Shown: positions 26,606 to 31,262 of the stretch, one piece after another
Numbering within the stretch: position 1 is the stretch's first letter
How the letters are laid out: each line of letters begins with the position of its first letter
DNA from: Burkholderiales bacterium
Lineage (GTDB): Bacteria; Pseudomonadota; Gammaproteobacteria; Burkholderiales; JABEVD01
Direction of reading: 5' to 3'
Length of the DNA: 38,680 nucleotides
Assembly (NCBI GenBank): GCA_013044025.1
Contig: JABEVD010000095.1
Coordinates: 1-38,680, forward strand
Notes under the pieces: model-generated
The model's database searches: none
Told to the model about the DNA's origin: nothing
Seen by the model: the letters and a program-made list of their open reading frames with translations, nothing else
Translations under genes and position numbers: made by a program

Positions 26606-27379
26606 ATGGAATCGACAAAATCGCAAAAGGCCAAGATCGAGGTTCGCAATCTCGATTTCTATTACGGAAAATATCACGCCCTGCGCTCGATCAATCTTTC
26701 CATTCCGGAAAAGATGGTGACGGCCTTCATCGGACCATCCGGCTGCGGCAAGTCCACCCTGCTCAGGACCATGAACTGCATGTATTCGCTCTATCCTCAC
26801 CAGAGGGCGGCGGGTGAAATCGTCATCGACGGTGAGAACATTCTGGACGGCAAGCGCGACCTCAACAGCCTTCGCGCCAGGATCGGCATGGTTTTCCAGA
26901 AGCCCACCCCCTTTCCGATGTCGATTTACGACAACATCGCCTTCGGAGTGAAGCTGCATGAAAGGCTGAATCGCAGCGACATGGACGACCGCGTGGAATG
27001 GGCGCTCAAGAAGGCTGCGCTCTGGGACGAAGTGAAGGACAAGCTGAAGCAGAACGGAAACAGCCTTTCCGGCGGTCAGCAGCAGCGTCTTTGCATCGCG
27101 CGCGGCATCGCGGTGAAGCCTGAAGTGCTGCTGCTGGACGAACCGGCATCCGCGCTCGACCCGATATCGACCGCCAAGGTGGAAGAACTCATCACCGAGC
27201 TGAAAGACGATTACACCATCGTCATCGTGACCCACAACATGCAGCAGGCTGCGCGAGTCTCGGATTACACCGCCTACCTGTATCTTGGCGAGCTGATCGA
27301 ATTCGGTGAAACCACCTCGATCTTCACCACGCCGAAACAGAAGGCAACCGAAGACTATATCACCGGCAGATTCGGTTGA
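26606..27379 (+). CDS. pstB: phosphate ABC transporter ATP-binding protein PstB
   Basis: 257 aa; Walker [54 protein letters not shown]. Confidence 0.98.
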
Positions 27380-27383
27380 TTTC

Positions 27384-27429
27384 CGAACGTTACCCGTGGG
27401 CGATGCGTCGCCCTTGCAGGTAACGTTCG
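27384..27429. repeat. nested inverted repeat between convergent pstB and the GGDEF/EAL gene
   Basis: Outer arms CGAACGTTACC (27384-27394) and GGTAACGTTCG (27419-27429), 11 bp perfect; inner GGGCGA-TGCG-TCGCCC (27398-27413). Confidence 0.9.
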
Positions 27430-29876
27430 AATTCTTCCGGAAGCAGTGGCTCGCTGTAGTAGAAACCCTGGATCTCGTCGCAGCCCTGCTCCTTCAGCAT
27501 GTCGAACTGCGCTTTGGTTTCCACTCCCTCGGCGATCACCTTGAGGTTCAGGCTGTGCCCCATGCTGATGATGGTCCTGGTGATCGCCGCATCCGCCTCC
27601 ACGGTAGTGATGTCCCGGACGAAGGAACGGTCTATCTTCAGCCTGTCCAGGGGGAAATACCTGAGATAATTCAGGCTGGAATATCCGGTTCCGAAATCAT
27701 CTATGGAAAGCTCCACCCCGAGCTTCTTCAGCTTGGCCAGCGTCACCATGGTTTCCTGCGCATTCTGCATCACCATGCTTTCCGTGAGTTCGAGTTCGAG
27801 GAGTTTCGGATCCAGGCCGGTTTCCTCCAGAATGCGCGAAATGATGTCGCTGATTTTCTGCTGCCTGAACTGAAGCGCGGAAATGTTCGCTGAAACCGGC
27901 AGGGAAATCATGCCGGAATCGCGCCAGCGCTGGCACTGACCGCAAGCCGTCTGCAGCACCCAGTCCCCGATCGGGGAAATGAGTCCGCATTCTTCCGCGA
28001 TCGGAATGAATTTCGAAGGCGGGATTTCCCCCTTCTCGCCGTGCCTCCAGCGAATCAGCACTTCCAGACCGATGAGGTTTCCGCTTCGCAAATCCATCTT
28101 CGGCTGGTATTTCAGGTAGAACTCTCCTTTTTTCAGCGCCTGCCTGAGATCCACTTCCATGGAAAGTCGCTCGAATGCTTCCGAATTCATTTCCGCGCTG
28201 AAAAACTGGAAATTGTTCCTGCCGGCTTCTTTCGCATGATACATCGCAGCATCGGCATTCCGGATCAGTGTTTCGCTCGTGCTTCCATCCTGCGGAAAAA
28301 GGCTGATCCCGATGCTGAAGGAAACGACCAGATGCTGGCCTGCGATGTGGTGGGGCTCGGCCATTTCCTTCACGATGCCTTCCGCGACATGGATGACCGA
28401 TTCCGGATTCTCGATCCCGGTGAGGACGATGATGAACTCGTCACCACCCTGTCGGCAGACCGTGTCCGACTCGCGAATGTGCTTTTTCAGGCGTCTTGCA
28501 ACGGACTGGAGCAGCAGATCCCCGGCGAGGTGACCCAGGGAATCGTTGATGCTTTTGAACCGGTCCAGGTCCAGGAACAGCAGCGCGATCTGATTGCCGC
28601 TTCGCCTCGCAGCAGCCAGCGCTCTCGACATGTGTTCCTCGAAGAGCACGCGGTTCGGCAGTTCGGTGAGCGGGTCGTAATAGGCAAGAAAACGGATCCT
28701 TTCCTCGCTGCGCTTTCTGCTCGTGATGTCGGTGAAGATCGCGATATGGTTGGCAAGCTCCCCCCTGTCGTTTTTCTCGGTGCTGATGGAGAGCCATTCA
28801 GGATAGATTTCCCCTGATTTCCTGCGGTTCCAGATTTCCCCCTGCCATTGTCCGGTATTGCGGATCGAGCGCCACATTTCCTCGTAGAATTCGAGATCCT
28901 GCTTTCCGGAAGAAAGAAGTTTCGGATTCCTTCCGACCACTTCCTCCTGGGTATAACCGGTGATCCGGGTGAATGCGCGATTGACGGAAATGATGCGGTT
29001 TTGCGCATCGGAGATGATGATCGCTTCCTCGCTGTTCTCGAAAACCTTCGCATACAGGGCGAGCTTGTTGGTCACGCCTTCCAGATTCTCGACGAAGACA
29101 TTGAAGGTTCCCGCGAGCTCATCCACATCCCGGTGCCTGCCGTCGATTTTCGCTCGAACGGTGAGGTCCATGTTCGACCTCGCCTCGCCCATGATCTGCT
29201 TGAGCCTGCCAAGCGGTTCCTCGATGTTCTTGACGACGATGCGGCGCACGAAGGACCCGATGATGGCGGAGAGGATCAGTTCGAATGCCAGCAAACCCCA
29301 CCAGAGCCAGCTGTTCAGCTTCTCCATGGAGAGTTCCTCGTCGGTCAGGTTCAGCGTGACGCTCGCCGCCCCGTTGACGCTTCCCGGCTGCACATGGTGG
29401 CACATCAGGCAGTTCGTTCCCCTGAAGTTTGTGCTCACCACGAAGGGGATCACTGCCCTGAAGCGCAGTTCCCCGTCCTTTCTGAATTTTTTGTAAACGG
29501 GTCTGGCGGTTTCGATCGCCTTGCGGTCGAGCGCATCGACCGCAGCCTCGGAAGGCAATCCAGGCCCGAACTGATCGCTCACCTGCTTGGCCCGGATGAT
29601 GCGGAGCTCCTCGATGCCCCTGGTGGAGGACATTTTCCTGAGCAGCAGCAGCCGGTTGCGGGGATCGCTGATCTTGCCGGTCACCATCAGCTTGTTGAGG
29701 CCGTTGATGAGGCCGTCAGCGGTATCCTGGGCGATCGATCTCGAATCGGACAGCTCGCGGGATTCGAACATTCCCACGATCCATTGCTGAAAAACCAGGA
29801 ACAGCACGAATACCGCAGTCATGATGAGGATCTGCAGCTTCCACTGTACCCCGAGCGCGTGCCACCAGTTCCGCAT
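27390..29876 (-). CDS. membrane sensor with c-type heme motif, HAMP, PAS, GGDEF and EAL domains (c-di-GMP cyclase/phosphodiesterase)
   Basis: MRNWWHALGVQWKLQILIMTAVFVLFLVF TM1; NCLMCHHVQPG (CxxCH) in the periplasmic region; TM2 LWWGLLAFELILSAIIGSFV; HAMP; PAS EAIIISDAQNRIISVNRAFTRITGY; RESDTVCRQGGDEF; EVLIRW, ELTES, IDDFGTGYSSL, IAEGVET. Track ORF starts at a TTG (29897). Confidence 0.93.
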   Translation of the reverse strand: MRNWWHALGVQWKLQILIMTAVFVLFLVFQQWIVGMFESRELSDSRSIAQDTADGLINGLNKLMVTGKISDPRNRLLLLRKMSSTRGIEELRIIRAKQVSDQFGPGLPSEAAVDALDRKAIETARPVYKKFRKDGELRFRAVIPFVVSTNFRGTNCLMCHHVQPGSVNGAASVTLNLTDEELSMEKLNSWLWWGLLAFELILSAIIGSFVRRIVVKNIEEPLGRLKQIMGEARSNMDLTVRAKIDGRHRDVDELAGTFNVFVENLEGVTNKLALYAKVFENSEEAIIISDAQNRIISVNRAFTRITGYTQEEVVGRNPKLLSSGKQDLEFYEEMWRSIRNTGQWQGEIWNRRKSGEIYPEWLSISTEKNDRGELANHIAIFTDITSRKRSEERIRFLAYYDPLTELPNRVLFEEHMSRALAAARRSGNQIALLFLDLDRFKSINDSLGHLAGDLLLQSVARRLKKHIRESDTVCRQGGDEFIIVLTGIENPESVIHVAEGIVKEMAEPHHIAGQHLVVSFSIGISLFPQDGSTSETLIRNADAAMYHAKEAGRNNFQFFSAEMNSEAFERLSMEVDLRQALKKGEFYLKYQPKMDLRSGNLIGLEVLIRWRHGEKGEIPPSKFIPIAEECGLISPIGDWVLQTACGQCQRWRDSGMISLPVSANISALQFRQQKISDIISRILEETGLDPKLLELELTESMVMQNAQETMVTLAKLKKLGVELSIDDFGTGYSSLNYLRYFPLDRLKIDRSFVRDITTVEADAAITRTIISMGHSLNLKVIAEGVETKAQFDMLKEQGCDEIQGFYYSEPLLPEEFERYLQGRRIAHG

Positions 29877-29903
29877 GATCCCCCTTCCGGTCTTCAAGCG
29901 GAA

Positions 29904-31262
29904 TCAGCCCGCTTCCTGTCGCACCGCCTGCGCGATCGAATCCGCCCAGAATTGCACCCTGTCCCTGGATTTTCCCTCGACCATCACGCGGATCAGCGGC
30001 TCGGTGCCCGATGCGCGCAGCAGCACCCTCCCCTCGCCGTCCAGATTCCTTTCCGCGTCGATTCTGGCATTTCTCACGGTTTCATTCGCATCGCAATCGA
30101 ATTTCTTCGCCACCCGCACATTCACCAACACCTGAGGATAGAGATCCACTCCTGCAATCAGACCGGACAGCGTGGCATTCGATTCGCGCAGCGCATGCAG
30201 CACCTGAAGCGCGGAAATGATCCCGTCTCCGGTGGAATGCCGGTCGAGACAAAGAATGTGCCCCGATCCTTCCCCACCGATCTGCCATCCGTTCCTTTGC
30301 AGCAATTCGAGCACATAGCGGTCTCCGACCTTCGCCCGCTCGAAAGCAATCCCGGCCCTGGAAAAGGCATGCTCCACGGCGAGATTGGTCATGACTGTAC
30401 CGACCACGCCCCCTTTCAGCGTGCCGTTGTTTTTCCTGTGGTTCGCAATGATGTAGAGAAGCTGATCCCCGTCGAAAAGCCTTCCCTGCGCATCGACCAT
30501 GACCACCCGGTCTCCGTCACCGTCGAAAGCGATGCCGATGTCGGCGCGATTTTCCATCACCGCGCGCTGCAGCGCTTCGGGGTGGGTCGCACCGCATTCA
30601 TGATTGATGTTGATCCCGTCCGGGGATGCGCCGATGGCCACCACGTCCGCGCCCAGCTCGTGGAATACGTTCCAGGCGATGTGGTAGGTCGCCCCATGCG
30701 CGCAATCGACCACGATACGCATTCCCCTGAGATCCAGTTCCGAGGGAAAACTTCCCTTGCAGAACTCGATATAACGCCCGGCCGCATCGTTCATCCGCCT
30801 CGCGCGTCCGAGCTCTGCGGAAGCTCTGGTGACGATGGGATCGTCCATGCTCTCCTCGATCGCCGTTTCCACTTCGTCCGGAAGCTTGCTCCCTGTCCCT
30901 GAAAAAAACTTGATTCCATTGTCTTCATAGGGATTGTGGGACGCGCTGATCACGATGCCCGCCTGAAGGCGCAGCGCGCGGGTGAGATAGGCCACCGCCG
31001 GAGTCGGAATGGGCCCCGCCAGGAAAACGTCCACGCCAGCTGCGGACAGACCTGCCTGCAGCGAGGATTCGAGCAGGTAGCCGGAAACCCGGGTGTCCTT
31101 GCCGATCAGCACGGTGGGACGCTCGCCGCTCGAAAGATGCCAGTCCCGGGAAGCCAGCATCCTGCCCGCGGCATAACCCAGTCTCATCACGAATCCTGGC
31201 GTGATCGGCAGTTCGCCGACTTTTCCCCTCACCCCGTCGGTGCCGAAATATTTTCTGCTCAT
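29904..31262 (-). CDS. glmM: phosphoglucosamine mutase
   Basis: 452 aa; [48 protein letters not shown]. Confidence 0.97.

Follow-up and report, generated by a model that had tools for sequence, protein, structure and literature searches.

A predicted periplasmic heme c sensor joined to GGDEF and EAL domains in a Burkholderiales genome

The gene and its output module

The window considered here is the whole stretch of DNA that was analyzed, 38,680 nt of contig JABEVD010000095.1 from a Burkholderiales bacterium (assembly GCA_013044025.1). Its minus strand carries a complete open reading frame of 828 aa (27390–29876), which starts with the ATG at 29876 and ends with the stop codon 27390–27392; a TTG at 29897, 21 nt upstream of the ATG, is also a possible start. 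The gene is codirectional with glmM (29904–31262, minus strand), from which it is separated by 27 nt, and convergent with pstB (26606–27379, plus strand). Recomputed coordinates agree with what the sequence-only reading had given for the frame, its neighbors, the heme motif, and the RESD, GGDEF and EAL motifs. Besides the frame itself and its Pfam matches, the assignment as a heme-sensor GGDEF-EAL protein is supported by purifying selection: against a 94%-identical orthologue from another MAG of the genus (L002), dN/dS is 0.10 overall, 0.09 in the sensor, 0.06 in PAS-GGDEF and 0.14 in EAL, and the whole protein thus appears to be maintained.

The encoded domains, all on the minus strand, follow one another as TM1, periplasmic domain with CLMCH, TM2, HAMP, PAS, GGDEF and EAL. 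TM1 (about aa 13–35; 29772–29840) is the hydrophobic part of a long N-terminal helix in the AlphaFold2 model, and TM2 (about aa 190–215; 29232–29309) is the hydrophobic segment that opens the C-terminal helix. The succession of TM2, HAMP and PAS after the heme motif, already proposed from the letters, is supported by this modeled helix and by Pfam, which recognizes the cytoplasmic PAS domain (aa 275–385; 28722–29054; PF13426, 1.2e-19) and places HAMP (aa 221–266; 29079–29216; PF00672) just under its cut-off, at 21.5 bits for a threshold of 25 that is passed in relatives.

The GGDEF (aa 398–555; 28212–28685; PF00990, 1.6e-53) and EAL (aa 576–810; 27447–28151; PF00563, 3.2e-76) domains are intact and predicted to be catalytic. 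The putative inhibitory site RESD (aa 468–471; 28464–28475) precedes the GGDEF motif (aa 477–481; 28434–28448) with five residues between them, and EVL, ELTES, DDFGTG and AEGVET begin at aa 605, 696, 726 and 782, respectively. The catalytic residues, on which the initial proposal of an active enzyme had depended, are intact in the sequence, the EAL set being kept in full as E(VL), N, E(LTE), DD(FGTG), K(IDRSF) and E(GVET). The whole GGDEF-EAL module is collinear with the catalytic MorA, the nearest protein of solved structure (E 1.7e-141). Among NCBIfam equivalogs, the phosphodiesterase DibA (NF045675) comes closest, with 677 bits for a cut-off of 980. Intact GGDEF-EAL hybrids are often net phosphodiesterases. 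By analogy, the net output is probably phosphodiesterase activity, the sign being one that sequence does not reveal.

The predicted periplasmic heme domain

The region between the two membrane helices (about aa 36–177; 29346–29771) is a predicted single-Cache domain that contains the attachment motif CLMCH (aa 156–160; 29397–29411), with H160 as the predicted proximal heme ligand. Conservation of CxxCH, on which the sequence-only reading had hinged, is complete: C156, C159 and H160 are invariant in the 36 non-redundant relatives of a first alignment (A1) and in 19 more distant ones, hence in 55 of 55, with the reservation that one of the six seed peptides in one of the relative searches was TNCLMCHH, which contains the motif and therefore biases the loci from that peptide search towards it, the other loci having come from whole-domain searches. 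The second set (A3) was drawn from the phylum by a whole-domain search and comprised 20 relatives, of which one repeats a member of A1. Met64 (29685–29687), the predicted switchable distal ligand, is as invariant as the motif (55/55), and the full list of invariant positions in A1 (n = 36) reads M64, G67, R75, R95, G104, G106, P144, C156, C159, H160 and G169. Since C156, C159 and H160 do not vary among the relatives, CLMCH is, on this comparative evidence, no chance motif.

The AlphaFold2 model, built on the A1 alignment, has a mean pLDDT of 94.4 and a single-Cache fold. The TM1 helix extends into the periplasm and is followed by a helix at 72–83 and by strands at 88–95, 127–133, 136–146 and 167–176, after which the chain enters TM2. 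The short helix that bears CxxCH sits between the third (136–146) and fourth (167–176) strands, and a helix inserted at precisely that place is the defining layout of the sCache_heme domains described in a 2026 preprint (PMC12889525). Foldseek against the PDB retrieved the Geobacter chemoreceptor GSU0935 (3b42, E 1.1e-6) as well as the Cache domains of WalK and CitA, the first rank being an integrative model of WalK-YycH. WalK is not known to bind heme through a CxxCH motif, so that only the fold is common to both, and a WalK-like Cache was rejected as the identity of the domain.

Assignment to a family required profile comparisons, as no Pfam or NCBIfam family scores above its cut-off in residues 1–230. 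The Tll0287-like family PF11845 (cut-off 24.1) yields no match for the window protein at E values up to 10 and at most 18.5 bits in marginal relatives among the matches listed; it was rejected as the direct family. Likewise, PF21563 (Mcp40H-20_sensor, cut-off 27) does not match the window protein and gives weak matches in 7/36 and 4/26 relatives, GSU0935 itself scoring 1.1e-44. A DUF515 match (E 0.018) spans the TM region and was judged spurious. A profile search of PDB sequences recovered GSU0935 (3b42, E 0.006) and GSU0582 (3b47, E 0.037), and in the same alignment Met64 stands opposite residue 26 of the 3b42 chain, which corresponds to Met60 because C106 of that chain is the published Cys140. 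In an hhalign comparison with PF11845, represented by 30 members of the same order, some 60 columns around CxxCH aligned at 96.8% probability (E 2.8e-10).

Thus a conserved CXXCH, a Cache fold with a helix between the third and fourth strands and profile homology are all found, and methionine occupies the Met60 position, as in a GSU0935-type His/Met ligand set. A distal cysteine of the Tll0287 type (His/Cys) is not found: C156 and C159 are the sole invariant cysteines in A1, and position 64 is methionine. By sequence and modeled fold, the domain belongs, as a diverged member, to the heme-Cache superfamily, and its His/Met set is like that of the Geobacter chemoreceptors and unlike the His/Cys set of Tll0287. 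The initial suggestion of a DUF3365/Tll0287-like N-terminus holds at the level of the superfamily, but the family does not match, and GSU0935 and GSU0582 are closer. GSU0935 is the nearest type because Met64 aligns with its Met60 and is invariant; the similarity is weak by sequence, at about 20% identity.

We infer that heme is almost certainly bound covalently to the periplasmic domain in vivo. Heme c assembly proteins of the Ccm type (PF01578; CcmC/CcmF/CcsA) are encoded in the host, with three in this genome and one or more in every one of the nine congeners. Taken together, motifs, fold and conservation agree with the original proposal of a predicted covalent-heme sensor in the periplasm joined to intact GGDEF and EAL domains.

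Paralogues, proposed mechanism and alternatives

Searches across the contigs of the genome (2.56 Mb, 88% complete) identified four copies of the heme cassette, and each of nine congeners carries four to eight. Pfam analysis of representatives revealed three kinds of output, namely MCP, Aer-like PAS-sensor-MCP and PAS-PAS-GGDEF-EAL, and a Sideroxydans MAG (L020) combines the cassette with PAS-GGDEF, as read from its translation. In a tree of the sensors, sequences group mainly by output type, and those of PAS-GGDEF-EAL proteins fall into a single clade (100/99), which divides into a subclade at the glmM site and another at a different locus. Homologues of the RuBisCO large chain and PilZ c-di-GMP receptors are present in 9/9 congeners.

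Several observations accompany these counts. One own-genome copy (L061, 3–842) is truncated by a contig end before its output domain. In the Aer-type receptors (L056, 10650–12716, and relatives) a cytoplasmic PAS domain at the N-terminus is combined with the periplasmic cassette, which gives a single MCP two potential sensors of redox state. A dense heme-chemotaxis cluster occurs in a related genus (G032): three heme-cassette chemoreceptors are grouped (L064, 5208–12493) beside CheY-like, CheW/CheV-like and MotB-like genes, as judged by eye from translations. The own genome also encodes a true PF11845 domain (E 1.6e-25) on a different protein from the window gene, with a PAS-PAS-HD-GYP output (L001, 1–2112, minus strand of contig C20), so that heme-Cache inputs would serve two different classes of c-di-GMP output. 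With 34 EAL matches, some of which are contig-end fragments, the genome has unusually many c-di-GMP enzymes for 2.56 Mb, and the window gene is therefore one of many.

As we envisage it, the protein would be an inner-membrane one-component receptor bearing a single heme c, bound through C156 and C159, on its periplasmic single-Cache domain, with H160 as proximal ligand and Met64, where the long N-terminal helix ends, as sixth ligand. In GSU0935 the distal ligand Met60 coordinates the heme in its reduced form, leaves it when the heme is oxidized, and gives way to CO or NO (PMC8396549). Met64 may behave in the same manner, coordinated in the reduced state and lost either upon oxidation or when NO (or CO) takes its place. 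The ligand switch would shift the N-terminal helix against TM2, and the signal would be relayed through HAMP and PAS to GGDEF-EAL, thereby setting local c-di-GMP. EAL would dominate as a net phosphodiesterase, and GGDEF would act either as a working cyclase under product inhibition or as a regulator that binds GTP. The protein would be one of four paralogous sensors in its genome, acting beside chemoreceptors with the same cassette. We give this scheme as a whole, a periplasmic His/Met heme c acting as a redox (or NO) switch on c-di-GMP turnover with net phosphodiesterase activity expected, a probability of roughly 0.6; the nature of the signal, redox or NO, and the sign of the output are what we infer.

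A variant in which the heme of the same protein serves chiefly as an NO sensor, NO displacing Met64 and thereby switching c-di-GMP turnover, appears possible, if rather unlikely. It draws on the in vitro NO binding of a membrane-bound, HAMP-containing sCache_heme signaling protein of P. azotoformans, which behaved selectively as an NO rather than a redox sensor (PMC12889525), and on GSU0582 and GSU0935, which bind NO in both redox states (PMC8396549). However, copper nitrite reductase, the one NO source searched for, scores above cut-off in 0/9 congeners and has no match in the 88% complete own genome, which on this search leaves no obvious endogenous origin for NO. Moreover, a general redox cue accounts no less well for the many chemoreceptor paralogues of this autotrophic lineage.

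Alternatively, the heme could be structural or electron-accepting, and a small molecule in the Cache pocket could be the real ligand that governs c-di-GMP. Cache folds usually bind small ligands, and the invariant R75, R95 and P144 could form such a pocket; nevertheless, the invariance of Met64, equal to that of the heme cysteines and at the position of the GSU0935 heme ligand, makes this improbable, and dual use of this kind is not reported for the characterized members considered here.

The neighborhood offers a final alternative. The arrangement of ftsH-folP-glmM facing pstBACS is kept in all eight congeners in which glmM was found (own genome included), and the sensor gene stands at the glmM/pstB junction in three of them (G000, G002, G007). 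It is absent from the junction in four (G003, G004, G006, G008), and G001 retains a frameshifted EAL remnant (L078, 2885–3168), closest to the version of G000, G002 and G007, whose position between glmM and pstB shows that the gene was lost at the site. A sister gene follows an Aer-type heme-cassette chemoreceptor and a further GGDEF-EAL gene in G001, G005 and G006, and a GGDEF-EAL gene in G003. Readthrough from glmM is plausible, as neither a promoter-like nor a terminator-like site lies in the 27-nt gap, but a pairing so poorly conserved says little about function, and the position beside glmM and the phosphate genes is, from this synteny, probably incidental. A role of the gene in amino-sugar synthesis or phosphate uptake through cotranscription with glmM beside pstSCAB, a cotranscription first suggested from the same-strand arrangement, is hence rejected as highly improbable, given the congeners that lack the gene there and the paralogues that adjoin heme chemoreceptor or GGDEF-EAL genes instead.

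Significance and relation to known systems

Should the proposed redox switch be correct, it would provide a testable periplasmic heme control of c-di-GMP, most of the studied heme inputs (DosP, globin-coupled sensors) being cytoplasmic and non-covalent. Within these small genomes of autotrophs, the sharing of one cassette between chemoreceptors and c-di-GMP enzymes would also offer a natural system for studying the redox wiring of swimming and attachment. The domain is under-annotated: the window protein and its relatives, among the matches listed, fall below every Pfam cut-off, yet the cassette profile matches about 38% of the genomes sampled from the phylum (77 of 200). Speculatively, these sequences may represent a large, unnamed His/Met branch of heme-Cache sensors, widespread in the phylum yet overlooked by Pfam. 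In this autotrophic genus the branch would have expanded to between four and eight copies per genome, whose potentials might differ, and one covalent-heme input would let both chemotaxis and c-di-GMP turnover follow a single extracellular redox gradient.

Novelty is nevertheless modest, as fusions of heme-Cache sensors to c-di-GMP enzymes have been published before, and the ranking of this gene as the window's best candidate for new biology was overstated. sCache_heme domains are fused to MCPs, kinases and GGDEF/EAL enzymes (PMC12889525), and iron-oxidizing Gallionellaceae encode single-CXXCH MCPs and a DGC/PDE protein (Table 1, clusters 152, 40 and 400, of PMC10734462). Londer et al. (2006), as cited in PMC13277305, recognized c-heme sensors as a family of Geobacteraceae and other bacteria. 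The terms "c-type heme" and "cytochrome" are absent from the text of a census of c-di-GMP sensors (PMC8846402), which suggests that a functional link between heme c and c-di-GMP has had no published test, though the idea is not unimagined. The heme-binding CHASE4 c-di-GMP proteins of P. aeruginosa (PMC13277305) were set aside as counterparts, since their domain is different and was assayed with heme b only.

Among characterized proteins, GSU0935 and GSU0582 (3B42, 3B47; PF21563) resemble the window protein in their Cache/PAS-like periplasmic fold between two TM segments, the CxxCH near its C-terminal end, the distal methionine at the same alignment position (Met ligation is not seen in every GSU structure, His/water being found as well) and the HAMP output. 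The window protein differs in being about one-fifth identical to them and below the PF21563 cut-off, in its PAS-GGDEF-EAL output, and in a longer domain with a conserved QFGPGLP-E segment. With the sCache_heme proteins of PF11845 (DUF3365/Tll0287) it shares the single Cache, the CxxCH helix between the third and fourth strands and the ensuing G-x-x-x-GA-S strand, but the family model does not match, the loop after CxxCH is short, and an invariant methionine replaces the distal cysteine of Tll0287. The Gallionellaceae clusters, listed and not analyzed in PMC10734462, are similar by description, with one CXXCH, a chemoreceptor or DGC/PDE output and an origin in relatives of iron oxidizers, among which the Sideroxydans MAG carries the cassette. 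MorA of P. aeruginosa and DibA match the whole GGDEF-EAL module with all motifs kept, but have a different input domain, and the window protein falls below the DibA equivalog threshold. Finally, DosP, the heme-PAS oxygen-sensing phosphodiesterase of E. coli, is likewise a heme-controlled PAS-GGDEF-EAL protein with methionine as an exchangeable ligand; its heme b is held non-covalently in a cytoplasmic PAS domain, in contrast to the predicted periplasmic heme c of the window protein.
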